Source: Synechococcus sp. CCY 0621 (GTDB taxonomy: Bacteria; Cyanobacteriota; Cyanobacteriia; PCC-6307; Cyanobiaceae). Taken from it: DNA of 64,000 bases. Under the pieces are notes generated by a model. The model had not been told where the DNA came from. It saw nothing but the letters and a program-made list of their open reading frames with translations, and ran no database searches. The DNA is taken from positions 62,001 through 126,000 of the forward strand of contig NZ_JAFKRH010000038.1 of NCBI RefSeq assembly GCF_019038465.1, given 5' to 3'. The first letter of the stretch is position 1. Each line of letters opens with the position of its first letter. The position numbers and the translations under genes were made by a program. Positions 11,730 to 41,165 of this stretch are shown in pieces.

Positions 11730-11983
11730 GCCAAGAACCAATCGGTGCGGTGGCAAGGGGCAACCACCTGATCGAGAGCATTCCTACGTAAGAAGGGCTG
11801 ACCGGCATAGATGAACCAGAAATGGTCCTGAGGCCGTTTTGCCAAGCAACAGATGCGGAATACTGAGTGGGAGAGCAAAACTCGTTCAGCCAAGGCCTGC
11901 GAATAAAGAATAAACTGATAGACGACCGCAGTCGTGTCACTGCAATGGGAGTAAAACGAGGGAGTGAGAAAGAGAAGATTCAA
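11726..11983 (-). pseudogene. Short ORF resembling the N-terminus of a glycosyltransferase
   Basis: 85 codons starting MNLLFLTPSFYSH, a typical GT-B opening strand and loop, then a few strands, ending in an ATGA overlap with the GT4 gene downstream. No donor-binding domain exists, so it cannot be a whole glycosyltransferase. It is either a truncated remnant whose coupling to the next gene was kept, or a small protein of unknown role. Base composition is lower in GC than the downstream genes. The glycosyltransferase assignment rests only on the first 15 residues. Confidence 0.4.
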
Positions 11984-25048: not shown

Positions 25049-25509
25049 CAATTCAACTGGGACTGACCAAGATCATCTGTTGCAGTGCAGCCAGAAGTGA
25101 GCAAGGGTGAAGATCAAGGGACTTCAAGGAGCCGAGGAGGCTCTGGGACTACGAATGCACACCTAGATCAGCAGCCAAACCAGGCGAGGCATCACTCAGG
25201 AAGAGCGTACCTACCGGGATGAGGAGGCTGAGACCCAAAGAGGGAATCTCTTCAGGGTGAAAGCTGAACTGGAGCAGCTTCAGTAGCACAGGCCACATAT
25301 CCGTTGAAAGCCAACACCAATGGCTTTGTTGCGGGTCTGGACGCGAGCAGGGCTACAGCGTCTCAAGACTGACAGATTTAAGCAGCCTTTTCTTTGCTGG
25401 GGGCTTCAAGTTGTGCCGATGTCAGCACATGGCCCAATCCGCTGAGCCCCCTGCCCCACCAAAGAGAGACCCGTGCATGGGGAGTCAACACAGGTAGCAT
25501 TTGAGGCCG
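25049..25509. other. Boundary stretch between polysaccharide and lasso clusters
   Basis: About 460 bp with no convincing gene. Minus-strand codons down to 25378 end in a protein-like tail (HVLTSAQLEAPSKEKAA), possibly the C-terminus of a lost gene. It should include the promoters of the ABC exporter (leftward) and of the nucleotidyltransferase gene (rightward), but no clear promoter elements could be assigned. Confidence 0.4.
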
Positions 25510-26595
25510 ATGAACAATCGGGAAGGGACCCCCTTCTGCTCTATTGCGTTTGGGTCGTTGGGCATGAAAGGCGCGGCTTCGTTCATGGCCGAACTGAACC
25601 ATCTGGCCGACAACAGGCTGTTGCCGGCGCTACCCATGCTGGAGGCCAAGGGCCTTGTCAGCCCTGAGCTGGTTCAACTCGGCAGCCATACCAGCGTTGG
25701 CCACCCCAGTGGCAATGCCCCCGCCGCGGATCGTGGCGTTCTCGAAGCCCTGCAGCGGGCTGGGGTTCGGGTTCTAGTTCTGAAAGGAACGCTGCTGGCG
25801 CACACCGTCTACGGCAGCCCCGAGCAGCGACTGCGTGTCGACACCGACCTGCTCGTGCCACCGGAGCAGCGCTCCGCCGCCGAGCAGGTGTTGCGGGACC
25901 TGGGTCTGGCACCCATCACACCGCTGTCGGCCAACACCATTGATACGCAGGAGCTCTGGGTGGGCGATGGCTCGGAAGGCAGGCGGCTCATCGATCTGCA
26001 TTGGCTTCTGCTGAACAACCCGGTGTTCGCCGATCTGCTGGGCTTCGAGGAGCTCTGGGAACGCCGCCAGCCCTTCACGATCGCCGGCTTCACAGCCTCA
26101 GGGCTTGGGCCCTGTGATGCATTGCTGCATGCAGCGCTCCACTACTTCGTCCACCACGTGGGACAGGATCGACCGGCCCAATGGCTGCTCGATGGTGATC
26201 TGCTCTGGCTGCAGTTGAACCAAGCCGCCCGGGATGAGCTGGTGCAACGGGCCATGCAGCTCGGTGTGGCCGGCCTGCTTGGCACCTTCCTGCAGGAAGC
26301 CAACGCTCGCTTTCAGACGGGAGTCGACACAACCCTGCTCAACCAGCTCCAGCAGGCCGGGAAACGCCAATGGCGCAGTGGCATCATGCGGGTCAACGGT
26401 CGGCCCCTGGCTGCCCAATGGCTGATCCTGCGGACCATGAGGGGGAAACGGGCGCGGCTGAACCACCTGCGGCGGCTGTTGTTCCCCTCCAAAGCCTGGA
26501 TGCTGGCGAAGTATCCAGAAGCCGGAGGTTGGTCACTGCCCTGGCTCTATGCCAGGCGAGCGCTGGAAGGCTGGGAAAAGGGTGTGCGCCACTGA
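25510..26595 (+). CDS. NTP_transf_5 family nucleotidyltransferase of the lasso cluster
   Basis: About 361 residues. The core VRVLVLKGTLLAHTVYG ... LRVDTDLLVPPEQ matches the uncharacterised nucleotidyltransferase family (PF14907 type). The conserved Lys-Gly is followed by the DxD metal site, and RLIDLHWLLL comes next. Proteins of this family recur in lasso-peptide clusters that also carry an HPr-kinase-like protein, as in the paeninodin cluster; their reaction is not settled. It is on the plus strand, convergent with the B1 gene (14 bp gap). The start is uncertain: ATG at 25510 is preceded by GAGG, and ATGs at 25564 and 25585 are alternatives. Confidence 0.8.
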   Translation: MNNREGTPFCSIAFGSLGMKGAASFMAELNHLADNRLLPALPMLEAKGLVSPELVQLGSHTSVGHPSGNAPAADRGVLEALQRAGVRVLVLKGTLLAHTVYGSPEQRLRVDTDLLVPPEQRSAAEQVLRDLGLAPITPLSANTIDTQELWVGDGSEGRRLIDLHWLLLNNPVFADLLGFEELWERRQPFTIAGFTASGLGPCDALLHAALHYFVHHVGQDRPAQWLLDGDLLWLQLNQAARDELVQRAMQLGVAGLLGTFLQEANARFQTGVDTTLLNQLQQAGKRQWRSGIMRVNGRPLAAQWLILRTMRGKRARLNHLRRLLFPSKAWMLAKYPEAGGWSLPWLYARRALEGWEKGVRH

Positions 26596-26609: not shown

Positions 26610-26933
26610 CTACGAGGCCTCACAGGCCACAAGCCCCTGCGCCAGCAGGTCCTGGCACAGCTTGAGCAGATCACGCTCCAGCTGATCGGCCTCCACCGCA
26701 TACTCCTGCAGCATCTGATCGCGGATCTCGGCCAGGGATTGATTCGACGCCATCAATTCCCACATCCGCGCCCCCACCGGATCCAGGCCGTAGTAGGTGC
26801 CCGTGGCCAGGTGCAGGATCACGGTTTCATCGCCGACGCGGCGGTCCATGACCTCGGTGGGGACCGTGAGGCGGTCGGAGAGCTGCAAGCGATAGCTGGT
26901 CGAAGCGGCCTCAACCGTCGGTTCGGAGGTCAT
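26610..26933 (-). CDS. PqqD-like RiPP recognition element, lasso B1 protein
   Basis: 107 residues with the PqqD/RRE fold signature: VGDETVILHLATGTYYGLDPVGARMWELM (read as two blocks around residues 33-61), then three helices ending DLLAQGLVACEA. In lasso systems B1 binds the leader peptide and presents it to the B2 peptidase. Unusually it is on the opposite strand from B2 and C, reading away from B2 across a 44-bp gap. The extra N-terminal 12 residues are polar and probably disordered. Confidence 0.88.
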   Translation of the reverse strand: MTSEPTVEAASTSYRLQLSDRLTVPTEVMDRRVGDETVILHLATGTYYGLDPVGARMWELMASNQSLAEIRDQMLQEYAVEADQLERDLLKLCQDLLAQGLVACEAS

Positions 26934-26977
26934 GGAAGCTTTTGAAGCGCCATGGATCCGCCGTAAAGTAAAGGGTT
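26934..26977. promoter_or_regulatory. Divergent promoter region of lasso B1 and B2
   Basis: Only 44 bp separate the two start codons. The segment is relatively AT-rich on the B2 side (GCCGTAAAGTAAAGGGTT); AAGGG six to ten bases before the B2 ATG could serve as its ribosome-binding site. Core promoters for both directions would have to overlap the coding ends. Inferred from position only. Confidence 0.4.
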
Positions 26978-27415
26978 ATGAACAGTTGGCGACGCAAAGC
27001 AGGCCGCTTCCACGAACTGGACGGACCTTCGCGCCGGCTGGTGCTGGGCAGCGCCGTGCTGCTGCCGCTGTTCTGGCTTCGGGTGAAAGTGCTGGGCCAA
27101 TGCACACTTGGCCCTGGCCGCGTTGGCAGCACGCTTGCGCCTCAAGTTGACGCCGCCGTCCGCATGGGGCAGCTCGTGAACAGGGTGGCGCACTACGTGC
27201 TTCCCCCTGATAACTGCCTCAGCCGCTCGCTCTGTCTGCAGTGGCTGTTGCGCCGCCGCGGCATTCCCGCCGATCTGCGCCTGGGCGTGCAGCTGGACGC
27301 AGGACAGCTGCAGGCCCACGCCTGGGTGGAAGTGGCCGGCCATCCGGTCAATGACGCCCAGGATGTGGCCGAGCGCTTTCTGCCCTTCGAGCAACCCCTG
27401 TCCGCCCAGGCATGA
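26978..27415 (+). CDS. Lasso leader peptidase B2 (transglutaminase-like)
   Basis: 145 residues, the usual B2 length. The catalytic triad is visible: Cys80 in DNCLSRSL, His114 in AHAWVEV and Asp126 in VNDAQDV. The N-terminal 60 residues are basic and hydrophobic (RRLVLGSAVLLPLFWLRV), as in many B2 proteins. Expected role: ATP-independent cleavage of the precursor after the leader, working with B1 and C. The stop overlaps the start of the cyclase gene (ATGA), so translation is coupled. Confidence 0.92.
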   Translation: MNSWRRKAGRFHELDGPSRRLVLGSAVLLPLFWLRVKVLGQCTLGPGRVGSTLAPQVDAAVRMGQLVNRVAHYVLPPDNCLSRSLCLQWLLRRRGIPADLRLGVQLDAGQLQAHAWVEVAGHPVNDAQDVAERFLPFEQPLSAQA

Positions 27416-29364
27416 GCGGTGTCTTCGGGCTGTTCAATCAGGACGGCAAGCCCGTCGAGCGCAGCGAACTGGGCGACATGGCGTCGCTGCTGGAACGTCG
27501 CGGGCCCGATCGCACCGCGTTCTGGAGCGAGGGGCCGGTAGGCCTGGGTCTCACCCTGCTCACCACCACGCCGGAGCTGGCCTTTGAGCCCCAGCCCGTG
27601 CGCCATGGCGCCAGCGGCTGCGTGATCGTCGCCGACGTGCGCCTCGACAACCGCGAGGAACTGCTGGCGGCCCTGGGCCTCGCCGATCGCGCCCATCTGC
27701 TAGGCGATGCAGGCCTGATCCTGGAGGCCTACCTCGCCTGGGGCGAAGCCTGCCTGGACAAGTTCCTGGGCGATTTCGCCTTCATGCTCTGGGATTCCCG
27801 CCACCAGAAACTCTTCGGCGCCCGTGATCACTTCGGCCTGCGGCCCTTCTATTACCACCACAGCCCGGGCCAGTTCTTCGCCTTCGCCTCCGAGCCCAAG
27901 GCGATCCTGGTGCTGCCGCAGGCGCCCTATCGCCTCAACGAAGCCCGGATCGCCGATTTTCTGGTGAACCAGCTGGAAGGCATCGACAAGACCTGCACCT
28001 TCTTCGAGGAGGTGTTCCGCCTCCCTCCAGCCCACTGCGTGAGCGTGACGCCGGAGCGGATGTTCATCCGCCGCTACTGGACCCTGGAGCCAGGCGAAGA
28101 ACTACGGCTGCCATCGGATGAGGCCTACGCCGAAGCCTTCCTGGAGGTGTTCACCGAAGCCGTGCGTTGCCGCCTGCGCAGCCATGGCCCCGTGGGCTCG
28201 ATGCTCAGCGGCGGCATGGACTCAGGCTCGGTGGTGGCCGTGGCCAAGGAGATCCTGGCTGAGCAGGGCCGCGCCCCGTTGCCCACCTTCTCCGCCGTTG
28301 GCCCTGACCCTGAAACCTGCGTCGAAACGCGGGCGATCCACGCGGCGCTCACCATGCCTGGGCTCGATCCAACCTTGGTTCGGTACGACCAATTGGACGT
28401 CTTGATGCCGGAACTGGGGGAGCTGGGGTTGTCGCTGGATGAACCCTTCGACAACCACATGACGTTGGTGCGGGCGATGTATCTGGCGGCGCACCGCAAG
28501 GGCCTGAAGGTGTTGTTGGATGGGGTGGCTGGAGATGTGGTGCTCAGCGAGGGCAGCCACATCGCTCGTCTTGTTCAGCGTGGCCATTGGCGGCACGCCT
28601 ACCGCGAGGCGGTGGGGCAGCAGACGTTCTGGGGTGGTGCCTACCCCGCCTGGCGGGAATTAGTTGGCGCCGCACGGTATGCGTTCATGCCGCTCCCGTT
28701 GCGGCGGCTCTACCGGCGCCTGCGGGACCCAGGCCGCCAGCGGCACCAGCTGGAGCGGACCATCCGCGAAGCGCGGATAGATCCCACTTTCGCCGATCGC
28801 ATCGGGCTGGCTGAGCGCCTGCAAAGGCTCCAGGCGCACGGGTCGGACCCTGTGGTGGTGACATACCCCGAAGAACGGGCCCGGGCGATTGACCACCCCT
28901 ATCTCACGGTGGGGCGGGAGCGCTACGACCGCGTCGCCGCCGCCGTAGCGGTGGAGCCCCGTGATCCGTTTCTGGATCAGCGGGTGGTGACCTTCTGTCT
29001 CTCCCTGCCAGGCGCACAGAAGCTCGCAGGCGGCTGGCCCAAGATCGTGCTGCGCCGCGCCATGGCCAATCGGCTACCCGACTCGGTCCGCTGGCGCACA
29101 GGTAGGGCGCATCTGGGCTGGGCCTTCACGAGGGAGCTGATCAGAAGGTTCACGATGGACAAAGATCCACGGATGACAAGTGGCCAAATGCTCCTCTCGC
29201 GCTACCTCTCAACATCCGTGAGCGCACGACGCTCGCCTTTCCCCCATACAGATCCAGATCCGCTTGAAAGCAGCTACGATGACATGGGTTTGGTCTGGTG
29301 GCTAAAAAGTCACCGTGCCCTTGCCAGGGAAATAGATCCCAAACCAAACCTCCTGATCAACTAG
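27412..29364 (+). CDS. Lasso cyclase C (asparagine-synthetase-like)
   Basis: 650 residues, class II asparagine synthetase fold. The N-terminal glutaminase-like domain starts MSGVFGLF: residue 2 is Ser, so the catalytic Cys of true AsnB is absent, as expected if no ammonia is released. The C-terminal PP-loop SGGMDS (residues 266-271) binds ATP. Expected reaction: adenylation of a core Asp/Glu side chain and attack by the core N-terminal amine to close the macrolactam. The last 250 bases are more AT-rich than the rest. The precursor gene starts 9 nt after its stop. Confidence 0.92.
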   Translation: MSGVFGLFNQDGKPVERSELGDMASLLERRGPDRTAFWSEGPVGLGLTLLTTTPELAFEPQPVRHGASGCVIVADVRLDNREELLAALGLADRAHLLGDAGLILEAYLAWGEACLDKFLGDFAFMLWDSRHQKLFGARDHFGLRPFYYHHSPGQFFAFASEPKAILVLPQAPYRLNEARIADFLVNQLEGIDKTCTFFEEVFRLPPAHCVSVTPERMFIRRYWTLEPGEELRLPSDEAYAEAFLEVFTEAVRCRLRSHGPVGSMLSGGMDSGSVVAVAKEILAEQGRAPLPTFSAVGPDPETCVETRAIHAALTMPGLDPTLVRYDQLDVLMPELGELGLSLDEPFDNHMTLVRAMYLAAHRKGLKVLLDGVAGDVVLSEGSHIARLVQRGHWRHAYREAVGQQTFWGGAYPAWRELVGAARYAFMPLPLRRLYRRLRDPGRQRHQLERTIREARIDPTFADRIGLAERLQRLQAHGSDPVVVTYPEERARAIDHPYLTVGRERYDRVAAAVAVEPRDPFLDQRVVTFCLSLPGAQKLAGGWPKIVLRRAMANRLPDSVRWRTGRAHLGWAFTRELIRRFTMDKDPRMTSGQMLLSRYLSTSVSARRSPFPHTDPDPLESSYDDMGLVWWLKSHRALAREIDPKPNLLIN

Positions 29365-29373
29365 AAAATCAAA

Positions 29374-29547
29374 ATGAAACTTTCTACCGAGAATCAGCAA
29401 AGCCTGACTCAGGCGCCTTACCTCCAACCTTATTGCTCACCACGTCTTTCTGTTTTTGGAGCTATCAGCGAGCTCACCAATAGTGGCACCGGAGATCAGA
29501 GAGAGAGTCCAGGAAATGCTCCTGCCACCAAACTTCCGCGTGCATAG
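29374..29547 (+). CDS. Lasso precursor peptide (57 aa), below the usual ORF size cut-off
   Basis: Reads from ATG 29374 to TAG 29545-29547. The leader has the lasso motif in exact spacing: Tyr20-x-x-Pro23-x-Leu25-x-x-x-Gly29, then Leu34-Thr35. Thr in the penultimate leader position is the family rule for B2 cleavage. This puts the cut after Asn36, giving a 21-residue core that starts SGTGDQRESP and ends ATKLPRA. Glu44 is then core position 8, a valid ring size; a cut before Gly38 would make it position 7. No other Asp or Glu falls at 7-9. The peptide has Arg at 43 and 56, no Cys in the core and a C-terminal Ala. It lies 9 nt after the cyclase stop; no strong Shine-Dalgarno is visible, so coupling is likely. 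Confidence 0.85.
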   Translation: MKLSTENQQSLTQAPYLQPYCSPRLSVFGAISELTNSGTGDQRESPGNAPATKLPRA

Positions 29548-29767
29548 CTAGGCCTTAGCGCTCTTCGGAACCCTCAAGGGAAATCAAGATAGTATCAGTC
29601 AAATGCAAATATCATTTCACAAAAATAAAGGCGTGCCACAAAGATACTTTGCATTTTATTGCTTTTGGTACTTTCAGAAACGAACCCTTAACGATTCACT
29701 CTGGTCGTTCCCATAATTTGCTACTTCAATCCAATAATCTTACTTTGTAATTTTACTGGCGTTGAGC

Positions 29768-30574
29768 ATGGGCGGCTTGAGCTACAGAAGCATATTTGCC
29801 AATCCTGATTCCTTGCACGGCACGGCGAACCTATTTAGGCATGCCATTCGTCTCGGCCTACATGACTATAGCTCCCTGAATAGAATCACCAACAAACTCT
29901 ACACAAAGGCAGCCGACTTTGGGTCCAAAGATCATAATCTTGCCGGTCTTTGGCCTTGGGAGCAAAAAATCGTCGATGAATTTTTTGCAAGCCAACATTA
30001 TATACTTGTTGCCGGAGCAGGTGGTGGTCGTGAGGCGATAGCACTTGCCAAACAAGGCTTTTCTGTGACTGCGTTCGACTTCTGTGCGGCACTCACGAAA
30101 GCCTGCCGAAGTCACCTCGCCGAATTGGGCCTCAAGGCTCGCGTGCTGGACGCTCCACCCGACTGTGCACCCCCAGAACTAACATCTGAATTATTCGTTT
30201 ACGACGCCATATTCCTTGGACGAGGATTCTATCACCATATTCCAGGACGAACCCGAAGAGCCTTATTCCTGAAGGGCTGCAGACAATTCGTACGCCAAGG
30301 AGCACCCCTATTTCTATCTGATTTTTTCAACCGTCAGACGTCCGATCCCTTCTATTACAAAACTTATATGGTAGCGAAAGCCATCCGAACAATACGGCTA
30401 AGCCCTGATCCTGTTGAGCTTGGTGATTGGCTTAGCAATTGCATGCAGCATGCTTTCGTAGCAAGCGAGATAGAAGCGGAGATGAAGGAAGCCAAGTTCC
30501 GCTTAAAACACTATTTGGATACGCCTTTTGGACTGGACACCCAATTAGCTCATGCTGTTGGCATTGCGCAATGA
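29768..30574 (+). CDS. Class I SAM-dependent methyltransferase of the lasso cluster
   Basis: 268 residues from the ATG at 29768 (a TTG two codons earlier is also open). Motif I is ILVAGAGGGREAIALA (residues 79-94), with the acidic residue of motif II in FDF (Asp104). YDAIFLGRGFYHHI is the motif-IV-like segment, where substrate contacts are expected. Likely peptide tailoring, for example carboxyl or side-chain methylation, as methyltransferases are known in other lasso clusters; the target is unknown. AT-rich compared with the cyclase and the next genes. 220 bp without a recognisable gene separate it from the precursor gene. Confidence 0.82.
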   Translation: MGGLSYRSIFANPDSLHGTANLFRHAIRLGLHDYSSLNRITNKLYTKAADFGSKDHNLAGLWPWEQKIVDEFFASQHYILVAGAGGGREAIALAKQGFSVTAFDFCAALTKACRSHLAELGLKARVLDAPPDCAPPELTSELFVYDAIFLGRGFYHHIPGRTRRALFLKGCRQFVRQGAPLFLSDFFNRQTSDPFYYKTYMVAKAIRTIRLSPDPVELGDWLSNCMQHAFVASEIEAEMKEAKFRLKHYLDTPFGLDTQLAHAVGIAQ

Positions 30575-30657
30575 GAGACCTAGTCTCAACGGCACTTGAG
30601 CACGATTTTTTCAGGCTGATATAGGCTTTATGCATCTATTCAATCCAGAGATGAGAG

Positions 30658-31824
30658 ATGGGCAAGTCCACCGGCTACAACATTCTCAGTTATGGCGATA
30701 TGGTTAACAACCGGCAGCGCATGGATCCCTACGCCCGCACACTGCAGCAGGCCGTTCGTCGGGACAGTGTGGTACTTGATATCGGCGCGGGCACCGGCAT
30801 TTTCTCACTGCTCGCCTGCCGTTTTGGCGCCGCAGAGGTCCATGCGGTCGAACCTGATGCCTCTATCGATCTGGCTCGCACCATGGCAGCGGCCAACGGC
30901 TTTGCCGATCGCATCCACTTCCATCAGACCCTCTCCACCGCGATCACCCTGCCGCGCCCCGCCGACGTGATCGTCTCCGACCTGCGGGGAGTCCTTCCCC
31001 TCTTTCAGCATCACATCGCCGCCATCGCCGATGCCCGAAGCCGCCTCCTGGCGCCGGGTGGTGTGCTGATCCCCGCTCGCGACCAGCTCTGGGCGGCGCT
31101 GATCGACGTCCCCGAGGTCTACCGTCCCTACACCGAGCCGTGGCTCAGCAACACCTATGCGCTGGACCTGAGCCCAGGCCAGCCGCTGGTGGTCAACACC
31201 TGGCGCAAGCTGAACGCCAAAGCCGACCAGCTGCTGGTCGAGCCAGCCCATTGGGCCACGCTCGACTATCAAACGATCCAACGGACTGACGTCTCCGGTG
31301 AACTGTCCTGGATCCTGGAACGACCCGGCACGGCCCATGGAGTTCTGGTCTGGTTCGACGCGGAGCTGGCCGATGGCATCGGTTTTTCCAACCGACCGGG
31401 GGAACTGGAGCTGATCTACGGCCAGGCATTCTTCCCCTTCCAGGCACCCGTGCGGCTGGAGCAAGGCGACCACGTGGCAGTGGCTTTAAGCGCCACGCTG
31501 GTCAATGACAACTACCTCTGGCGTTGGGACACGCGTGCCCGCAGCGGCGACCACCTCAAAGCCAACTTCCGTCAATCCACCTTCTACGGAACACCCGTGG
31601 CGCTGGAGGCGCTCAAGCGCCGCTCCGCAGATTTCGTACCATCCGCAGACACATCCGCCGCGATCGACCGCTGCGTGCTGTCGCATATTGACGGGAAGAC
31701 GACCCTCGGGACCATTGCCGAAACTTTGATGGAAATGTTTCCCGAGCGCTTCCACCAGCACCAGGACGCGCTGAACTACAGCGCCAATCTGGCCGAGAAG
31801 TACCGCCCCGCCACGAACGGATGA
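30658..31824 (+). CDS. PRMT-like methyltransferase with C-terminal PqqD-like (RRE) domain
   Basis: 388 residues. The N-terminus GYNILSYGDMVNNRQRMDPYA and motif I VLDIGAGTGIFSLLA (residues 39-53), with Glu65 in motif II and LLAPGGVLIPA, give the protein-arginine-methyltransferase fold. The PRMT double-Glu loop is not conserved: it reads SDLRGVLPLF. A beta-barrel region follows to about 325. The last 58 residues (CVLSHIDGKTTLGTIAETL, then ALNYSANLAEKY) look like the PqqD winged helix that binds RiPP leaders. This suggests the enzyme docks on the same leader as B1; the two core arginines are possible targets. The stop overlaps the kinase-like gene (ATGA). Confidence 0.82.
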   Translation: MGKSTGYNILSYGDMVNNRQRMDPYARTLQQAVRRDSVVLDIGAGTGIFSLLACRFGAAEVHAVEPDASIDLARTMAAANGFADRIHFHQTLSTAITLPRPADVIVSDLRGVLPLFQHHIAAIADARSRLLAPGGVLIPARDQLWAALIDVPEVYRPYTEPWLSNTYALDLSPGQPLVVNTWRKLNAKADQLLVEPAHWATLDYQTIQRTDVSGELSWILERPGTAHGVLVWFDAELADGIGFSNRPGELELIYGQAFFPFQAPVRLEQGDHVAVALSATLVNDNYLWRWDTRARSGDHLKANFRQSTFYGTPVALEALKRRSADFVPSADTSAAIDRCVLSHIDGKTTLGTIAETLMEMFPERFHQHQDALNYSANLAEKYRPATNG

Positions 31825-32678
31825 CCCTCACCGCTGCTCAGCATCGGCTCCAGCAGCCGGAGCCCAACGCAGCCTTCCATCGATGGACCCTGCCCGGCGG
31901 CTCCACCTGGACAGAGTTCTACCGCCGGCCTGGCGGCTACATGCTGCGCTTCCCGGACCTGGCCGACTTCGAGATCAGTAACGACGCCCAGATCGCTATG
32001 GCCCATCCGGTGCCGGGCGTAGCGCAGAGCACGATGGAGCACCTGTACCTCAACCAGGTGCTGCCGTTGCTGCTCAGCACGCAGGGCCAGCTGGTGTTCC
32101 ATGCCAGCGCCTTTGCCCTCGAGGCTTGTGCGGTGGCGTTCGCAGCTCATTCCGGTCGCGGCAAGTCCACCCTGGCGGCCAGTTTCGCCATGGCTGGCCA
32201 TTCCTTGCTGACCGACGACGGCCTGCTCCTGGAACCAACCGCCAGCGGTTACAACGTTCGACCCAGCCACCCATCGATCCGCCTCTGGGACGATTCCTCT
32301 GAAGCGCTGATCCCCGCCGATGCCGCCACGTCCCCGGCCATCTCCTATTCGTCCAAGTCGCGATTTCTAGCCGGGGATCATGTGCGCTTCAGCTCCGAGC
32401 CCCAACCTCTCCGGTGCGTGTTTTTCCTCGGCGAGGGGGCGGTCTCTGAGATCACGATCGAACCCATGGCACCAGCCCAAGCCCTGATCGAATGGGTGAA
32501 GCACTCCTTCCTGCTCGACATCGAAGACCAGCCGCGACTGGCCACCCACTTCGACGACGTGGCCCGCCTGGCCGCCCATCCCTTTCACTACCGCCTCGAT
32601 TACCCCAGGCACTACTGCCTTCTGCCCGAGGTGCAGGCCGCCATCGTGAGCCATCTGGGCAGCCTCAGCGGCGCGTGA
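31821..32678 (+). CDS. HPr kinase-like protein of the lasso cluster
   Basis: 285 residues. The P-loop AHSGRGKST (residues 109-117) and the TDDG acidic pair (Asp132, Asp133) match the HprK catalytic core; the regulatory N-terminal domain of true HprK is absent. The N-terminal 90 residues (FYRRPGGYMLRFPDLADF) are typical of the RiPP-associated group. In the paeninodin lasso pathway a relative phosphorylates the C-terminal Ser of the peptide. Here the precursor ends in Ala, so the target must differ or the role is not peptide phosphorylation. Its 3' end overlaps the convergent exporter gene by 14 bp. Confidence 0.85.
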   Translation: MTLTAAQHRLQQPEPNAAFHRWTLPGGSTWTEFYRRPGGYMLRFPDLADFEISNDAQIAMAHPVPGVAQSTMEHLYLNQVLPLLLSTQGQLVFHASAFALEACAVAFAAHSGRGKSTLAASFAMAGHSLLTDDGLLLEPTASGYNVRPSHPSIRLWDDSSEALIPADAATSPAISYSSKSRFLAGDHVRFSSEPQPLRCVFFLGEGAVSEITIEPMAPAQALIEWVKHSFLLDIEDQPRLATHFDDVARLAAHPFHYRLDYPRHYCLLPEVQAAIVSHLGSLSGA

Positions 32679-34308
32679 ACGCTGCCGGGCGGATCACCGC
32701 CGCCGCCTGCGCCACCAGCTCCGGGTCATGGCTGGCCACCAGCACCAGCCGCTCACGGCTGCGCTCCAGCACCAGCTGCCGCACCGTGGCCGCCGCCTGG
32801 GCATCCAGAAACGCCGTCGGTTCATCGAGCAGCTCCACCGGCTGATCCAGCAGCCAGGCCCGCAGCAGCCCCAGCCGGTGGATCTCACCGCCGGAGAAAC
32901 AATCCACCGCCAGATTGAGCGGCCCATGCAGCCCCTCGGGCCGCCCCAGCAACGCCTCCAGCCCCAGCCGCTGCAGCCAGGGCGCCAGCAACTCGTCGCG
33001 TTCTTCTCGTTCCGGCAGCCGGCCCAGCAGCAGGTTGTCCGCCAGGCTTCCTTCAAACAACACTGCCCCCTGGGGCGCATAGGCCACCAGCGTCCGCCAG
33101 GCGGCGGCACCGGCGCTGCCCGTCAGCTCTATAGGCGCTCTGGAGCCCGCCACCTGCAGCTGCCACTGGCTGTCCTCCTCGGCCAGCAACCCAGCCACCC
33201 GATCCAGCAACGTGCTTTTGCCGCTGCCCGATGGCCCCACCAGCACCACCAAAGCGCCACGCCGCAGGTCCACCGCCGGCTGGCCCGGGCCCTGCCAGCG
33301 CACCGCCTCCAGCCGCGCTTCGCGCGCCAGCGGCCGGGTGGCGGCGGCCGCCAGCACCGGCGTCCCCAGGCGCTCGCGCAGCTCCCGCAGCGCCTGATAG
33401 CCCGGCAGCGCCCACAGGCAGGCGCGACGGCTGCTGATCACACCCCCCAGGGCCCCGGCCGCCCGGTAGGCCAGCAGCAGCACCGTGGCCACCGCCGCCG
33501 GCTGCAGCCCCGTGCCGCCCAGCCCCAGCCACAGCGCCACCACCAGCACCACCAGCCAGTCGCGCAGGGCGCCGAACACCGCCTCACGCCGCAGTGAGCG
33601 GCGGGCATTACGGCGATAGTCGCGTGCCGCCTCGCTGAAGCGCCCCAGCAGCCAGGGCTCGGCGGTGGCCGCACGGATCGCCTTGAGGCCATGCAGCCCA
33701 TCGCCCACGATGCTCTGCAGCGCCGCATTCAGACGCGTCTGCAGTGTTCCCAGCTGCCAGGCGCCGGAGCGTTGCGCCAGCCCCGCCAACGCCGCGGCCA
33801 CCAGCCCCAGCAGCAGCGGCGCCGCCTGGCCCCGGCCGGCCAGCACCACGCCGGCGGCGTAGATCAGCAGGCTGATCAGGCTCTGCAGCAGCTGCAGGCC
33901 CCGGTCCAGCGCATAGACGCTGGTGTCGATGTCGTCCATCAGCAGGCCCAGCAGCTCACCGCGGCCCACCTGCTCCAGGCGCAGGCTGGAGGCATACAGC
34001 ACCCGGCTGAGCAGGTCGCTGCGCAGCCGGTCGGTGAGGGCACTGTTCAGCCACTCCTGGAGCACGGCGATGCCCACCTGCAGCAGGCCGCGCAGCGCCA
34101 TCAGCGCCACCAGCAGCGCCAGCAGCTGGCGCAGATCCAGCGAAAGTGCCGGCAGCGGCAAGCCGGCCGCACCGCCCGCCCCCAGCAGCACCCCCACCGC
34201 CAGGCCCAGGCCGGCCACCTCCACCACACTCGCCAGCAGGGCCAGGCCCGCCAGCAGCAGGGTGTGCCCCCATCCCGCCTCGCGGGCCAGGGCGATCCAG
34301 AGCTTCAC
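32665..34308 (-). CDS. ABC exporter of the lasso cluster (D protein)
   Basis: 547 residues, membrane domain and ATPase in one chain. About six hydrophobic segments lie before residue 300. Walker A is LVGPSGSGKSTLLD, signature FSGGEIHRLGLLRAW, Walker B VELLDEPTAFLD and switch His SHDPE. Expected to export the mature peptide and give immunity. It is on the opposite strand and overlaps the kinase-like gene tail-to-tail. The first 20 codons and the bases just upstream lie in a 69-bp sequence repeated at 36726-36794. Confidence 0.88.
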   Translation of the reverse strand: MKLWIALAREAGWGHTLLLAGLALLASVVEVAGLGLAVGVLLGAGGAAGLPLPALSLDLRQLLALLVALMALRGLLQVGIAVLQEWLNSALTDRLRSDLLSRVLYASSLRLEQVGRGELLGLLMDDIDTSVYALDRGLQLLQSLISLLIYAAGVVLAGRGQAAPLLLGLVAAALAGLAQRSGAWQLGTLQTRLNAALQSIVGDGLHGLKAIRAATAEPWLLGRFSEAARDYRRNARRSLRREAVFGALRDWLVVLVVALWLGLGGTGLQPAAVATVLLLAYRAAGALGGVISSRRACLWALPGYQALRELRERLGTPVLAAAATRPLAREARLEAVRWQGPGQPAVDLRRGALVVLVGPSGSGKSTLLDRVAGLLAEEDSQWQLQVAGSRAPIELTGSAGAAAWRTLVAYAPQGAVLFEGSLADNLLLGRLPEREERDELLAPWLQRLGLEALLGRPEGLHGPLNLAVDCFSGGEIHRLGLLRAWLLDQPVELLDEPTAFLDAQAAATVRQLVLERSRERLVLVASHDPELVAQAAAVIRPAAFTRR

Positions 34309-34317
34309 GCGGTCATC
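34249..34317. repeat. 69-bp direct repeat, copy 1 (5' end of the lasso exporter gene)
   Basis: Matches 36726-36794 with one mismatch (T/C at 34304, Lys2 to Arg). It contains the exporter start codon, its first 20 codons and nine bases upstream. With copy 2 it bounds a 2.4-kb segment that carries toxin-antitoxin genes. Confidence 0.9.
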
Positions 34318-34998: not shown

Positions 34999-35496
34999 TC
35001 ACCCCTTGCCCAGCTCCATCAGCCACGCCTGGAAGCGCTCCAGATCCGCCTCGATCCCCGGCCAGAGGGCGATGGACCGCTGGAGGAGCTGCCGCACCCG
35101 ATCCGCCTCCAGTTCGTAGGCGTAGAGATGACGCACCACATGGCGGAAGGCCAGCAGTTCCGCCAATCCCATCCGCACCGCAGGGCTGAGCACGGCCGGC
35201 CTGGAGTCGGTGGCGATGGCCATGCGATCCAACAGCCGGCGATGCCAGTCGCTGCCCTCCGGTGTTCCCCCGTTAAACACCCGCACGATCAACAGCAGAC
35301 ATCGCTCCACTCCCGTGTACAGGCTCTGGAGCCGCAGGGCCGCCGAGTCCATCGCTTCACTGCTGCCACTGCCGGCTTCCATGAGGCTTTCGAGGCGCTC
35401 CAGGCTGCGCACCAAAGCGGAGAGCTTGTCGCGCTCGACGCGCAGATCGAGCTGCAGATCGCCCAGCTGCCGCTGCCACGGATCGAGGGAGGCCAT
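34999..35496 (-). CDS. HEPN-domain protein, HepT-like toxin
   Basis: 165 residues, all-helical. The HEPN catalytic motif RX4HXY is present as RHVVRHLYAY (around residue 117-126), with the family segments YTGVERCLLLIVRVFNGG and DWHRRLLDRM. Expected role: RNase toxin of a type VII (HEPN/MNT) pair, inactivated when the partner nucleotidyltransferase adds AMP to the motif Tyr. The start overlaps the stop of the MNT gene upstream. A decayed copy is at 39.5-39.9 kb. Confidence 0.88.
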   Translation of the reverse strand: MASLDPWQRQLGDLQLDLRVERDKLSALVRSLERLESLMEAGSGSSEAMDSAALRLQSLYTGVERCLLLIVRVFNGGTPEGSDWHRRLLDRMAIATDSRPAVLSPAVRMGLAELLAFRHVVRHLYAYELEADRVRQLLQRSIALWPGIEADLERFQAWLMELGKG

Positions 35497-35867
35497 CAGA
35501 GCACGATGGCCCGCTCCCGGATGCGCTGCTGCCAGTGGGGCGGCAGGCTTTCCAGGCGCACCAGATCGATCGGGATGGCTGGATCCTGGCGGGAGGCCGC
35601 CAGGCTGTCGAGCTCCGCCGTGGCGGTGAGCAGCGCCTCCGGCGGCAGACCCGCCACCGCCAGGTCGATGTCGGAGCTGCGGTGGCAGCGGCCCTCGGCC
35701 ACCGAGCCGAACAGCCAGATGGCCTCGATGCCCGGCCTGCCCTGCCGCAGCAGAGCTGCTGCCTCAAGGGCCAGACGGTGAGCCGCCCGCTCCCGGGCCT
35801 GGACCGAAGCGATCGCTTCCTGCCGGCGCTGGCGCCAGATCTCGCGCTGGGAGGGGCTCACCACCAT
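35496..35867 (-). CDS. MNT-domain minimal nucleotidyltransferase, antitoxin MntA-like
   Basis: 123 residues. The nucleotidyltransferase signature GSX10DXD is complete (FGSVAEGRC ... SSDIDLAV), with a third acidic residue in PIDLVRLE. Expected role: AMPylation of the HEPN partner. It comes first in the two-gene operon and touches the HEPN start. The N-terminal 30 residues are a charged helix. Confidence 0.9.
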   Translation of the reverse strand: MVVSPSQREIWRQRRQEAIASVQARERAAHRLALEAAALLRQGRPGIEAIWLFGSVAEGRCHRSSDIDLAVAGLPPEALLTATAELDSLAASRQDPAIPIDLVRLESLPPHWQQRIRERAIVL

Positions 35868-35988
35868 GGACTGAGCCTAATCACCCCACTCAGCCCGCCC
35901 ACACCTCGGCCTGCTCCTCGGGAATCAGCAGCTAGCCGAGCCGTGAGCCCACGGCTGCTGCAACGAAGCGGATGGACTCTGGCGTCCA

Positions 35989-36189
35989 TCAGGAATCATC
36001 CGCTCCAGAGATCCTGGGGAGATCACGGCGGAGTGTCAGCTCAAGAACCGTTTCGAGGCGAATCACGCGGGCGTTCAGGGCTTCAAGGCGGCGTTGCTGG
36101 TCTTGCATCAAGACCGCCATCTGCTCAACACGGTCGTTCATGCGGATCACGGTGGTGAGGGCCCCGAGAATCCGATCGGTCACGCTCAT
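35989..36189 (-). CDS. Small coiled-coil protein, partner of the ribbon-helix-helix gene
   Basis: 66 residues, mostly one helix with heptad-like spacing (MNDRVEQMAVLMQDQQRRLEAL). No catalytic motif and no known family. Its ATG overlaps the upstream stop by four bases (ATGA), so the two are made together. Could be the second part of an unrecognised toxin-antitoxin or mobilisation pair. Confidence 0.65.
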   Translation of the reverse strand: MSVTDRILGALTTVIRMNDRVEQMAVLMQDQQRRLEALNARVIRLETVLELTLRRDLPRISGADDS

Positions 36190-36488
36190 GCGGATTGGCC
36201 CTGGTCCATGGAGAGGTTGGAAGCGCGGACCATCGCCAGTGCCTGGTCCAGTGCCTGCTCGGCCCGAGCCGTGCTGCTCTCGATCTGATCCAAGGCGGCG
36301 ATCAGAACAGCGTCATCGCCTGAAACCGCCGATGGAGCGCGGTAGGCCTCACCGGCCTGACGAAAAAACTGTCCGAGGGACAGACCCATGGCTTGGGCAC
36401 GCTGCGTGTACGTCTCCTTTTCCTGGGGCGTCATCAGGACGGCCACGCGCTCTGTGGAGCGGGTGGAACGGTTGGCCTGAACGGCCAT
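36186..36488 (-). CDS. Ribbon-helix-helix protein (MobC/CopG-like)
   Basis: 100 residues. RSTERVAVLMTPQEKETYTQRAQAMG followed by LSLGQFFRQAGEAYR is the beta-strand plus two helices of a ribbon-helix-helix domain, as in plasmid mobilisation proteins and CopG-type antitoxins. The C-terminal half is helical (IAALDQIESSTARAEQAL). Probably binds its own promoter. No relaxase is nearby. Confidence 0.72.
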   Translation of the reverse strand: MAVQANRSTRSTERVAVLMTPQEKETYTQRAQAMGLSLGQFFRQAGEAYRAPSAVSGDDAVLIAALDQIESSTARAEQALDQALAMVRASNLSMDQGQSA

Positions 36489-36544
36489 CGCAAGCTGTGC
36501 ATGTGCTGACCATGCTAATGGAAAAGAGGGCGAAGGCGTTTCCC

Positions 36545-36720
36545 CCTCAGCATCAACAGCATGGGGGGCGCCACCGAAACGAAATCAAAACGCTGGCGGG
36601 ATCGTCTCTCGGCCCGCTGGCCCATGGTGGCCCGCTCCGGTGGGGTGAGGCCGAACCCACGCATCAGCCCGGCACCTGCCTGATCTCACTCGGCAGAGAT
36701 GTTCAGTGGCTGGGCCGGAG
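36545..36720 (-). pseudogene. Remnant of a GT4 glycosyltransferase C-terminus
   Basis: One minus-strand frame reads PLNISAE, a TGA, DQAGAGLMRGFGL, ERATMGQRAERRSRQRFDFVSV. This aligns with the end of the glycosyltransferase at 7991-9139 (NISAEVEQAGAGL ... MGQRAEHLFRERFDFASV), with one in-frame stop and scrambled ends. The rest of the gene is missing. On its 5' side it is joined directly to the copied exporter start. Confidence 0.75.
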
Positions 36721-36725
36721 CATGG

Positions 36726-36794
36726 CGCCAGCAGCAGGGTGTGCCCCCATCCCGCCTCGCGGGCCAGGGCGATCCAGAGCCTCACGCGGTCATC
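36726..36794. repeat. 69-bp direct repeat, copy 2 (orphan 5' end of the lasso exporter gene)
   Basis: Same 69 bp as 34249-34317 with one change. It encodes MRLWIALAREAGWGHTLLLA with no continuation. The start of this orphan lies 7 bp after the Coq4 stop codon, so the ancestral order may have been Coq4 then exporter. Confidence 0.9.
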
Positions 36795-37566
36795 AGGCAG
36801 CCAGCGCCGCGATCAGCGCGGGATTGGCATGCCAGCTGCAGGTCCCCTCCGTCACCGCCTCGATGCCCAGCTCGGCCCGCAGCTCCTCCAGGTTCTGCTC
36901 CATCCGCTCCTCCCAGATCACCGGAAACAGCGGCCGGGCCTCGGCGCCGATGTGCAGACCCTTGCTGATCATGCCGAAGGCGTAACCGGCGGTGCGGGCC
37001 TGCTCGGCCGGGGTTTCCAGTTCATCGATCGGCGTGTCGTTGCGGAACCAGTTGAGCAGCAGCGCCATCAGATCGGTGAAGGCCAGGCCCGGGTGGGCGA
37101 ACTGGGCCACGCTCAGGCTGATGACACCGAGTTCACCGAAATTGTCGAGACTGAAGCCACTGACGATGTGGTGGATGTCGTGGGTGGCGTAGACGCGGTA
37201 GTTGATGTAATCGGCGTCGGTTTCGAGGTTGGCGTAGAACTCGGGTTTGGGGAAGAAGTTGATGTCGTACCCCATCGTCTCCAGCACCGTGGCGTAGGTG
37301 TGGCCCAGGGTGCCCTTCGGCAGGGCCTTGAGGGCGGCCGCGTCGTAGGGGCCGCTGAGCCGCCGCTGCTCGATCAGGGCCACCGCGGCCGGGTCCCGCT
37401 GCAGCAGCGCCCGGCACACCTGCATCGGCCGCGACTGGCGCAGCCGATGGGAAAGCAGGAAGACGTTGTTGGCCGACGCTCCGGCTCCGGCGGCCAGATC
37501 GGCGAGTTCCAGAAAGGAGTGGATGTTCTCCTCAGTGGCGATCCGATCGAGGTAGCGAAATCCCAT
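36793..37566 (-). CDS. Coq4-family protein
   Basis: 257 residues. The Coq4 metal site HDxxHx11E is visible as THDIHHIVSGFSLDNFGE. Other conserved parts are the N-terminal RYLDRIATEENIHSFLELADL and PEFYANLETDADYINYR. Coq4 relatives act on quinone-ring metabolism; cyanobacteria make plastoquinone, so the exact role is open. The stop codon sits within the last bases of the 69-bp repeat. A deleted copy of the gene lies at 41034-41165. Confidence 0.85.
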   Translation of the reverse strand: MGFRYLDRIATEENIHSFLELADLAAGAGASANNVFLLSHRLRQSRPMQVCRALLQRDPAAVALIEQRRLSGPYDAAALKALPKGTLGHTYATVLETMGYDINFFPKPEFYANLETDADYINYRVYATHDIHHIVSGFSLDNFGELGVISLSVAQFAHPGLAFTDLMALLLNWFRNDTPIDELETPAEQARTAGYAFGMISKGLHIGAEARPLFPVIWEERMEQNLEELRAELGIEAVTEGTCSWHANPALIAALAA

Positions 37567-37603
37567 GGGTGCGGTGCGCGGCGGGGGAGCGGCGAGAAAC
37601 TAC

Positions 37604-39373
37604 TCAGGAACGCAACCTGATCCGTTTGCGGATCCGGCGGGCGACGGCGAAGGCACTTCCCACGCCGAGAATTGGAAGCGGGGCCGGAACGTTCGAGACC
37701 GGTGCCGCGTCAGCGACGTACAACCCAGCCCAGCTGAGGCTGTCCTCCTCGGTTTCGCCTTCGAGCGCCATGCTGGCCGCGAAGGCAATGCGGCCGTTGC
37801 GGTAGCCATCCCGCTCAAGCCCCACGGCCACGATCGGGATGCCTGCCGCATCCGGATCGATGAGCCCACCGTCCATGCCCGTTTCCACGATGGTGCGAAT
37901 GTCCGAAGTCCCATCAGTACTCGCGGCATAGAGACCCGAAAACACCTCCTTGAAGACGTCGTCCTCGCCATCCACTTCCCCCAGACCGATTCCCTTGAAG
38001 GCCAGATCCTCTTCATCGAGAGCCATGAAGGAGGAGGAGCGCCACCTGGCCAGCTCCTGGTCCCCTTCCTCATCCCCTCCTTCCCCGACCCCAGGCGGTC
38101 GTCCGGAGAAGTTCCAGGACAGGAAGGAGGAGAACTGCTCGCCGGTGCTGGCGATCAACTTGGTGAGCTTCGAGGCGATATCGGTGACGAAGATGCCCTG
38201 ATTCAGCGGAACCTCGAACTGGAAGTTCCCGTTGCCCACCCCACCGACGGAGGCATTGTCGGATTGCTCCTGGCAGTACTGAAGCCGGGCTTCGTTGCCG
38301 GATGACGCACAGGAGACCTGCTGGGTGATGGTGTCGGTGCCCCAGGCCCCCCAGTAGGCCACGGAACGGCCATTGAAGGAGAGAACCTCGCCGATGCTTC
38401 TGAGGCCCCCGGCATCCGTCAGGTCGGTGAGGCCGCCGATGCTGGCCAGGGAGGTGAGGGAGGTGGGATCCCCGAAAAGGGATGATAGATAGATGCCCCC
38501 GACCGAGGGTGCCTCTTCGTTGTCAACCCCGAGGAACACGGCCATGTTCATGGCGGCGCTCGGTGGTGCGGTGGAGCCGAAGTTGCGGTTCAGGGAATCA
38601 CCCGGGATCGGCGTGTTGCTGTCAGCGATGAAACGGACCGGGGCCACACCAGCGTCGGCGAGCAGATCCCGGAAGTACACCCCCGTTCTGCCCACCCCCT
38701 GGGCATCGGTCCAGTTGCCCTTGAAGACCACCGTGTTATCGGTGACCGAGGGCGCACCGGGGAACTGATCGAATTTCAGGCCCGTGGAACCGCCAGCAGC
38801 AGGAACGCTGAAGTAGTTGAAGGTGGCCAGTCCGCCGAGCTGGCTGGCACCCGTGATCAGAAAGCCCGATGGATTGCTGTAGATCCCTGAGGTGCCGAAC
38901 GATCCGTCGTCGGTGCGCCACACCGGGCTCGACTGCCCACGGAAGCCGACCGTTGCCGAGGCTGTCAGATCGATGCGCGGGAAGGAAGGAAACTCCGTGA
39001 AGGTCGCTCCCGTGTTGTTGGGGTCGGGGACAAGGCCACCACGGACCGCGATCGGCACGATCGGACGGGGCAGGGAGGCATCGCGGAGATCACGGGTGAA
39101 GATGCCGGTGGAGGGTTGACCGCTGCCGGAACCACCGCGACCGCGGGCCCGGAACACAACCAGGCCTGCGGCATTGATCGAGGGCTGGTTGTAGGCGTTG
39201 AACAGGCTAGCGGTGCCGGGAATCAGGTCGGCATTGTTCACCACCGTCTGGAAGCGAAAGGGCTCGGCCAAGACGGGTGAGCCCGCGGCAACAACGGCGA
39301 CGACAGCTCCCAGCAGTCCCACGGACGGGAGACGAAGACGACCCACGGGAAAGCCCCAGAGAACACTCACCAT
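37604..39373 (-). CDS. Large secreted protein with C-terminal sorting-like tail
   Basis: 589 residues. N-terminal signal peptide (VGLLGAVVAVVAAGSPVLA, cut near residue 36), then an extracellular domain rich in Gly, Ser, Asn and Asp with beta-type repeats (GIFTRDLRD, GVYFRDLLAD, GIYLSSLFGD, GLYAASTDG). The end is VPAPLPILGVGSAFAVARRIRKR: a Pro motif, a hydrophobic helix and a basic tail, as in PEP-CTERM-like exported proteins of cyanobacteria. Likely on the cell surface; function unknown. No exosortase gene is in the window. Confidence 0.75.
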   Translation of the reverse strand: MVSVLWGFPVGRLRLPSVGLLGAVVAVVAAGSPVLAEPFRFQTVVNNADLIPGTASLFNAYNQPSINAAGLVVFRARGRGGSGSGQPSTGIFTRDLRDASLPRPIVPIAVRGGLVPDPNNTGATFTEFPSFPRIDLTASATVGFRGQSSPVWRTDDGSFGTSGIYSNPSGFLITGASQLGGLATFNYFSVPAAGGSTGLKFDQFPGAPSVTDNTVVFKGNWTDAQGVGRTGVYFRDLLADAGVAPVRFIADSNTPIPGDSLNRNFGSTAPPSAAMNMAVFLGVDNEEAPSVGGIYLSSLFGDPTSLTSLASIGGLTDLTDAGGLRSIGEVLSFNGRSVAYWGAWGTDTITQQVSCASSGNEARLQYCQEQSDNASVGGVGNGNFQFEVPLNQGIFVTDIASKLTKLIASTGEQFSSFLSWNFSGRPPGVGEGGDEEGDQELARWRSSSFMALDEEDLAFKGIGLGEVDGEDDVFKEVFSGLYAASTDGTSDIRTIVETGMDGGLIDPDAAGIPIVAVGLERDGYRNGRIAFAASMALEGETEEDSLSWAGLYVADAAPVSNVPAPLPILGVGSAFAVARRIRKRIRLRS

Positions 39374-39445
39374 GTTTTAACCGCTTATGCGCCGAAGAAG
39401 CAGGCGGCTTAACGCAGGGCAATAATTCAACACTATGCGCTGCAA

Positions 39446-39465
39446 GGCTTTGGTTAAACCAAGGC
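39446..39465. promoter_or_regulatory. Palindrome upstream of the secreted-protein gene
   Basis: TTGGTTAAACCAA (39450-39462) is a perfect 6+1+6 inverted repeat, extended by partly paired bases on both sides. It lies 75-90 bp before the start of the secreted-protein gene. It could be a regulator binding site; not proven. Confidence 0.3.
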
Positions 39466-39509
39466 ATCGACGCGGCGGGCCAGCCCGCCGGAGGGCGCTC
39501 GCTGGGGCT

Positions 39510-39945
39510 GGTGCATCACACAGCACGTCTGCGGCAGTACGCAGTTCCTCCAGCCATTCCTGGAAGCGCGCAAGTTCCGCCTCGATCCCCCCCTGCAAAG
39601 GGCAATCGTCCGCTGGAGCAGCAGGCACACCCGATCCGCATCCAGTTCGTCAACGTAATGGCCATGCGATCCAGCAGCCGCCGATGCCAGTCGCTGCCCT
39701 CCGGCGTTCCCCCGTTGAGCACCCTCACGATCAACAGCAGACACCGCTCCGCGCCGGTGTAGAGGCTCTGGAGCCGCAAGGGCAGCCGAGTCGACCGTTT
39801 CAATGCTGGCGCTGCCTGCCTCCACGAGGCCTTGAAGCCGCTCCAGACGGCCAACCAGCTCTGAGAGTTTGTCGCGCTCGATGCTCAGATCGAGCTGCAG
39901 ATCGCTCAGTTACCGCTGCCAGGGATCGAGGGATGTCATCAGAGC
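39510..39945 (-). pseudogene. Decayed HEPN (HepT-like) copy
   Basis: Closely matches the intact HEPN gene at 34999-35496 over most of its length (LYTGAERCLLLIVRVLNGG, PEGSDWHRRLLDRM). The segment that should encode RHVVRHLYAY is deleted, and several frameshifts and stops are present. The catalytic motif is therefore gone. Same orientation as the intact copy. Confidence 0.8.
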
Positions 39946-39954
39946 TCGAGCCTC

Positions 39955-40060
39955 ACAACGCGATGGCCCGCTGCCGGATGCGCTCCTGCCAGTGGGGCGG
40001 CAGGCTGTCGAGCTCGGCCGTGGCGGTGCGCAGCGCCCCGATCCGCGAGCTGGTCTCCAT
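39955..40060 (-). pseudogene. Decayed MNT (MntA-like) copy, C-terminal piece
   Basis: Encodes a match to the end of the intact MNT gene at 35496-35867 (TATAELDSLP, then PPHWQERIRQRAIA) with the intervening PIDLVRLE part deleted. The GSX10DXD half is absent. The MscS gene starts 12 bp further on the other strand, so the 5' half was replaced. Confidence 0.75.
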
Positions 40061-40083
40061 CTGAGCGGAGGATGGGGTGGCCC

Positions 40084-41022: not shown

Positions 41023-41033
41023 GTGCGGCGTCC

Positions 41034-41165
41034 TCAGGCCTCCAGGGCCTGGGTGAGAGCAGGGTTCTGATGCCAGCTCCAGGTCCCCTCCTGCACCGCC
41101 TCGATGCCCAGCTCGGCCCACAGTTCCTGCCGATGCGAGAGCAGGAAGACGTTGTTGGCCGCCTC
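41034..41165 (-). pseudogene. Remnant of a second Coq4 gene with large internal deletion
   Basis: One open frame reads AANNVFLLSHRQELWAELG, then IEAVQEGTWSWHQNPALTQA and a stop. The first part matches residues ~31-41 of the intact Coq4 at 36793-37566, the second its last ~25 residues. Everything between, including the metal site, is deleted. Confidence 0.85.

Follow-up and report, generated by a model that had tools for sequence, protein, structure and literature searches.

Several described lasso peptide systems can be set beside the locus analyzed here. According to the accessible part of its report, the bsf cluster of Bradymonas sediminis combines split B1, B2, and C genes with an HPr-like kinase, and its leaders carry YxxPxL at positions −17 to −12, the spacing that the same text gives, together with Thr at −2, for previously reported precursors (PMC10368454). 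The kinase of that cluster, BsfK, is described there as phosphorylating core Ser3 and accepting Thr3, on a precursor without a C-terminal Ser. Earlier lasso kinases, as far as the accessible text of PMC9266682 covers them, modify a C-terminal Ser, as in the paeninodin and pseudomycoidin clusters, where the kinase adjoins the lasso genes and, for pseudomycoidin, a nucleotidyltransferase gene lies beside them. The same portion of that source covers the tailoring of lasso peptides by the methyltransferases StspM/LasF (C-terminal O-methyl ester) and by PIMT-type aspartimide methyltransferases (PMC9266682).

The window (the whole stretch of DNA that was analyzed, 64 kb in length) comes from the 3.23 Mb genome of Synechococcus sp. 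CCY 0621, assembled in 101 contigs, and contains a putative lasso peptide cluster with the following genes:

25501–26595, forward strand: nucleotidyltransferase-like protein (NTP_transf_5; PF14907, 107.5 bits)
26610–26933, reverse strand: B1 / RRE protein (PqqD family), divergently transcribed (PF05402, 67.2 bits, cut-off 23.4)
26978–27415, forward strand: B2 leader peptidase, transglutaminase-like (NF033537, 77.5 bits, cut-off 33; PF13471)
27412–29364, forward strand: lasso cyclase (C protein), 650 aa (NF033535, 549.3 bits, cut-off 525)
29374–29547, forward strand: putative lasso precursor ORF, 57 aa (predicted leader, residues 1–36; predicted core, residues 37–57)
29762–30574, forward strand: class I SAM methyltransferase of low G+C, MT1 (PF13649, 27.5 bits, cut-off 27)
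30658–31824, forward strand: PRMT-like methyltransferase (PF22528, 33.5 bits, cut-off 27)
31821–32678, forward strand: HPr-kinase-like peptide kinase (TIGR04352, 42.7 bits, below the cut-off of 200)
32665–34308, reverse strand: ABC transporter, likely an exporter (PF00005/PF00664; 93% identical in the sister species G198)

The B1 protein scores below the lasso-specific cut-offs, and relatives of the NTP_transf_5 gene adjoin lasso genes in several related loci. The locus shares with the bsf cluster, as described in the accessible part of PMC10368454, the split B1/B2/C set, the HPr-like kinase, YxxPxL at −17 to −12, a hydroxyl at core position 3, and the lack of a C-terminal Ser, whereas Thr at −2 and the predicted Ser1/Glu8 of the window stand against Ile at −2 and Gly1/Asp8 in Bsf. 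Two methyltransferase genes stand beside this bsf-like set, a feature read on the window side only. A kinase adjoining the lasso genes is common to the window and the paeninodin/pseudomycoidin clusters, and the nucleotidyltransferase gene to the window and pseudomycoidin, but the window precursor lacks the C-terminal Ser that those kinases modify (accessible part of PMC9266682). Methyltransferase tailoring may hold for the window as it does for StspM/LasF or the PIMT-type enzymes; the window enzymes match the PRMT-like and Methyltransf_25 families and are set apart from StspM by family match only. In its predicted Ser1 core and YxxP leader, the window precursor presumably resembles the caulonodins.

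The original prediction placed a 57-codon ORF 9 nt past the cyclase stop, and both translation and coordinates bear this out. Positions 29374–29547 translate to MKLSTENQQSLTQAPYLQPYCSPRLSVFGAISELTNSGTGDQRESPGNAPATKLPRA from an ATG start, 57 codons followed by TAG, in the same frame as the cyclase ORF that ends at 29364. The translation likewise agrees with the leader positions that had been named (Y20, P23, L25, G29, L34, and T35), with a core containing two Arg but lacking aromatic residues, and with E44 as the only fitting acceptor, which is the sole Asp/Glu at core positions 7–9 under either of the cuts that had been considered. The ORF thus has YxxPxL at −17 to −12 with Thr at −2, an acceptor at core 8, and adjacent B1, B2, and cyclase genes, and from its sequence it is almost certainly a lasso precursor. 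The best explanation of the whole, only a little less certain, is that the lasso peptide made from it belongs to class II (no disulfide). Very probably, the lasso precursors of known kind thereby gain a further member.

Across the six frames of the window (64 kb), there is a single occurrence of the strict pattern Y..P.L...G....LT, which was absent from 60 second-order Markov sequences of window length. The looser leader pattern likewise has one occurrence (0.12 expected), which leaves no second precursor in the window by that pattern. Over 104 sequences in total (872,495 bases, with overlapping loci retained), the looser pattern was hit 50 times. Curated models score the ORF weakly: NF033528 (lasso_cyano) aligns to residues 20–43 with 14.1 bits (E 0.034), below the cut-off of 33 that its rule sets for membership, and NF033521 (lasso_leader_L3) did not report the precursor at E up to 1. 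This could explain why annotation would miss the precursor. Run over all six frames of the source genome, NF033521 matched nowhere, not even in the controls, and carries no information there. No Shine-Dalgarno-like sequence was found upstream of the precursor ATG in the window; the in-frame cyclase and precursor are parted by a single stop codon and 9 nt that contain no such site (29364–29374), and the translation of the two may be coupled. Between 26900 and 31000, no terminator-like site was found, and the only match resembling a promoter is no stronger than expected by chance.

Relatives of the cyclase occur in a Chromatiaceae MAG (L001, 69% identity), a Desulfonatronospira MAG (L002, 59%), a Pirellulaceae MAG (L003, 58%), and on an Antarctobacter plasmid (L079, 47.5%). 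Within the family, they occur in G198 of the same genus (74%) and in G155 (36%, no nearer to the window's cyclase than those of other phylum genomes). At E ≤ 1e-60, the cyclase was found in 3 of 201 family, 2 of 42 genus, and 19 of 386 phylum genomes, the own genome being included each time; on viral contigs, five stretches matched a pattern scan and none was confirmed as a cyclase relative. The ORF had been expected to recur in related clusters, and a leader-bearing ORF does lie directly behind the cyclase, on the same strand, in all five loci compared (L001, L002, G198, L079, and G155), which comprise the four closest cyclases whose contigs continue downstream and the same-family G155; L003 was left out because its contig ends inside the cyclase. 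Among 28 cyclase matches at E ≤ 1e-25 scanned with the looser pattern, 18 have a leader-bearing ORF within 1.5 kb, two run off the contig, and eight have no leader-like ORF (six in the Bacillales loci L004–L008, L076, and the second cyclase of L101); this count misses L092, whose precursor was picked by eye. Over the 20 codons from Tyr20, the window and L001 have 3 identical, 12 synonymous, and 5 non-synonymous codons, and the 12 synonymous codons indicate that the protein, not the DNA, is constrained. When the 57-aa precursor was queried against the 201 family genomes, G155 and G198, which are both of the other cyclase-bearing genomes, ranked third and fourth among the non-self matches with weak E values (0.027–0.029), outranked by two stop-containing matches of similar score, and both matches sit directly downstream of their cyclases.

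Elsewhere in the phylum sample, at the loci L077, L073, L075, and L071, a single cyclase is followed by two or three leader-bearing ORFs, in some of which Trp replaces the leader Tyr. At L069 (G155:C6), an ORF on the minus strand (8366–7863), directly behind a lasso cyclase, has a lasso-type leader (NF033521, 23 bits, cut-off 19) fused to Peptidase_S74 (34 bits, cut-off 22). Peptidase_S74 is the endosialidase chaperone domain. The 140-aa protein was matched in 7 of 349 phylum genomes by frames of 270–745 aa, with four of the matches starting at residues 52–85 and three at residues 31–34, and nothing was found in the open-access literature on lasso precursor, endosialidase, and RiPP in combination. 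A precursor that carries a self-cleaving chaperone tail, if L069 encodes one, would be unusual.

The predicted division of the precursor is as follows:

29374–29481, forward strand: predicted leader peptide (Y20 = −17, P23 = −14, L25 = −12, T35 = −2)
29482–29544, forward strand: predicted core SGTGDQRESPGNAPATKLPRA (T39 = core 3, E44 = core 8, R56 penultimate)

The original prediction had offered two cuts, and the one after Asn36, with Ser1 and Glu8, is now favored because the YxxPxL (−17 to −12) and Thr (−2) rulers coincide there; the start at Gly38, with Gly1 and Glu7, fares less well. Under the Asn36 cut, the core reads S1-G-T3-G-D-Q-R-E8-SPGNAPATKLPRA, and the ring is probably closed between Ser1 and Glu8. 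The computed neutral mass of the predicted cyclized (−18 Da) product is 2091.046. M1, Y20, P23, L25, G29, L34, T35, G38, and R56 do not vary within the precursor clade (window, L001, L002, G198, and L079), where core position 1 is Ser or Ala, core 2 is Gly, and core 3 is Ser or Thr in all five. The acceptor is Glu8 in three of them (window, L001, and G198) and Glu9 in two (L002 and L079), and the C-terminal residues are A, P, P, C, and C, the window tail being Pro-Arg-Ala57.

Cleavage of the same precursor after Ser37 would yield a Gly1 core with a seven-residue ring at Glu44 (Glu7) held by small residues, which we regard as unlikely. Gly is the commonest first residue of lasso cores, residue 38 is Gly in all five clade precursors, a small ring might do without an aromatic plug, and xanthomonins are reportedly lasso peptides with seven-residue rings. 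However, lasso peptides with unusual N-terminal residues exist: the caulonodins, as Zimmermann is said to have described in 2014, have Ser1 and Ala1 N-termini and a YxxP leader. A Gly1 start would also move Thr to −3 and YxxPxL to −18 to −13, against the spacing given in the accessible part of PMC10368454.

For the Ser1–Glu8 ring, the plug that holds the thread was originally judged not obvious, which stands insofar as the core has no aromatic residue, but the penultimate Arg56, invariant in the clade, has since become a tentative candidate for a steric lock. The plugs of class II lasso peptides are expected to be aromatic residues, and a core without them counts against the class II reading as expected from typical plugs. 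Outside the clade, the penultimate Arg is absent from G155, L090, and L092. The precursors of G198 (L068, 9495 onwards) and L079 (8960 onwards) have a Cys pair and a C-terminal R-x-R-C, which suggests class IV lasso peptides with a tail disulfide.

We consider the most interesting part of the locus to be one that the original prediction did not foresee, namely the putative exchange of the precursor together with parts of its enzymes:

28655–32000, no strand: proposed exchanged block relative to the sister species G198 (approximate boundaries, where the blastn match ends)

The block contains the cyclase C-terminus, the precursor, the two methyltransferases, and the kinase N-terminus, with its junctions inside enzyme genes. 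By blastn, the window is 84.8% identical to G198 over 26634–28654 and 90.7% over 32001–34317, and between 28654 and 32001 only 177 bp match, at 68%. Over cyclase residues 1–380, the window shares 92.1% identity with G198 and 75.8% with L001, and over residues 381–570 it shares 57.4% with G198 and 70.0% with L001. Identity to G198 falls gradually, from 8–10 of every 10 residues at 340–379 to 7–8 and then to 3 of 10 from residue 420; the N-terminal ~380–415 residues are allelic to G198, and the C-terminal part lies inside the proposed block. The kinase has the reverse arrangement: residues 1–75 are 40–44% identical to G198 and 56–72% to L001, and from residue 126 the identity is 70–96% to G198 (84–96% to residue 275) versus 20–88% to L001. 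In trees of 14 of the cyclases collected, the N-terminal part groups the window with G198 (100/100) and rejects the window with L001 (p-AU 2.8e-5). For the C-terminal part, neither the window with G198 (p-AU 0.086) nor the window with L001 (p 0.28) is in the best tree, and neither is rejected.

Base composition also differs across the block. In G198, the block has a G+C content of 44–51% between flanks of 61–71% and 62–77%, and the window falls from about 65% to 42–54% over 29.2–30.8 kb only (cyclase end, precursor, and MT1), from which it follows that the window or G198, or both, may have received foreign DNA. From these comparisons with one sister genome, the precursor and parts of the processing enzymes were likely exchanged as one block relative to G198, and the enzymes around the precursor appear hybrid, with substrate-matched parts joined to a conserved backbone. 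For G155, conservation of the flanks with the window (B1 80%, transporter 82%) goes with 36% identity over the entire cyclase, which looks like the exchange of a larger piece. Such exchange in lasso clusters was not a topic of the titles listed from the open-access literature on lasso peptides and recombination or mosaic. In the window at 35020–41161, several short stretches match G198 repeatedly or out of order, which suggests repeats or rearrangement beside the exporter.

A history without exchange, in which the cyclase C-terminal third, the precursor, and the kinase N-terminus evolve very fast through contact with the variable core, appears improbable, though several observations are compatible with it: in all six comparisons with the window, similarity is lower over the C-terminal part of the cyclase than over its N-terminal part, the AU test retains the window with G198 in the C-terminal part, and L079 also lengthens strongly there (end branch 0.75 to 2.42). 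From the N to the C part, however, the tree path grows about tenfold between the window and G198 (0.084 to 0.83) and only 1.4–1.8 fold between the window and L001 (0.33 to 0.49), L002 (0.55 to 0.96), and L003 (0.82 to 1.18). The compositional contrast between the G198 block and its flanks, the lack of a match to either methyltransferase gene in the G198 locus, and the return of the identity to 84–96% within the kinase gene also speak against rapid divergence in place.

Among the enzymes that may tailor the core, the window kinase has the motif H94-A-G-G-K-S-D-D, which retains 7 of the 8 residues of the BsfK motif (H-G-G-G-K-S-D-D) at the same spacing. Ala stands at the position of BsfK Gly163, the first Gly, in the window and G198 kinases, and the kinases of L001, L002, and G155 have all eight residues. 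The absence of a C-terminal Ser and the core-3 hydroxyl in all five clade precursors make phospho-Thr3 the best guess at the modification, and by analogy with BsfK we put the phosphorylation of core Thr3 by the cluster kinase at about even chances. Beyond the clade, Ser3 is kept in L090; the G155 and L092 loci have a kinase match despite the absence of Ser/Thr3, which, like the Ala in the window and G198 motifs, counts against phospho-Thr3.

The two methyltransferases differ in their distribution. MT1 has no tblastn match in the related lasso loci searched, no match on plasmids, and, among 373 phylum genomes at E ≤ 1e-8, a match in its own genome only. The PRMT-like protein is related to that of L001 (72% identity), L090 (44%), L092 (32%), and L069/G155 (27%); in L002, only pieces match (2015–2347 and 11875–11970), as if the gene had been lost or moved. 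Relatives also occur at L091 and L093–L098, which have no lasso cyclase match, and the family is therefore not confined to lasso clusters. The C-terminus of the PRMT-like protein bears a weak likeness to PqqD (NCBIfam PqqD, E 0.0056, below cut-off), its structure prediction from two sequences has a mean pLDDT of 48.5, and PADLOC matched both methyltransferases only weakly to mad2, through the methyltransferase domain.

Methylation of a conserved core Arg by the PRMT-like enzyme, which would give an arginine-methylated lasso peptide, was first considered from the invariant penultimate Arg and was later demoted to a rather improbable reading. The protein is akin in sequence to PRMT2 structures (E 3e-26), and its gene adjoins lasso genes in the window, L001, L090, L092, and L069. 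Protein arginine methyltransferases are defined by a double-Glu loop, in place of which the window and L001 have Asp/Gln against the Glu/Glu of PRMT2, and arginine methylation is doubtful for lack of this canonical loop. Moreover, the L090 precursor core has no Arg though its enzyme is 44% identical, and the precursors of G198 and L079 have the Arg though no PRMT-like match was seen in these Cys-pair loci (L068 and L079). The open-access literature on lasso peptides and arginine methyltransferase gave one match, about a ribosome-targeting antimycobacterial.

By analogy with known lasso enzymology, we infer a pathway in which the PqqD-like B1 would bind the YxxPxL leader, the HPr-type kinase would phosphorylate Thr3 of the core, and either methyltransferase, or both, may modify the core as well. 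B2 would cut after Asn36, and the cyclase would adenylate Glu8 and bond it to the Ser1 amine, closing the ring around the threaded tail; the penultimate Arg56, perhaps together with Lys53/Leu54, would serve as the steric lock. The ABC transporter would export the product. That the low-G+C piece is instead a decayed or unexpressed insert, and the ORF a relic with an intact leader that is no longer a substrate, is highly improbable: the drop in G+C, the lack of a Shine-Dalgarno-like site, and the rarity of the cyclase in the genus would fit it, but the ORF and the adjoining enzyme ORFs are intact, the acceptor at position 8 and the invariant residues are kept, and L001, L002, and G155 likewise show lower G+C around the precursor.

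Returning to exchange as one block, it may be, at roughly even odds, that diversity among the lasso loci of this lineage arises when a substrate cassette with both ends within enzyme genes is swapped. The cassette would then carry the precursor together with the cyclase C-terminal third, the tailoring enzymes, and the kinase N-terminus, while the B1/B2/exporter backbone is conserved, and natural hybrid cyclases and kinases would result. According to the accessible part of a 2026 review, no cyclase crystal structure is known (PMC13352647), which makes the part of the cyclase that reads the core hard to name. Lasso cyclases are sought as tools for peptide engineering, and an exchange in nature whose junctions fall within the cyclase and kinase genes would mark modules to swap. 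If the cassette swap is true, the cyclase beyond residue ~380–415 and the kinase before residue ~125 would be natural substrate-specificity modules. The window peptide is in itself a test case, as a predicted lasso without aromatics that is possibly locked by Arg and possibly phosphorylated at core position 3.
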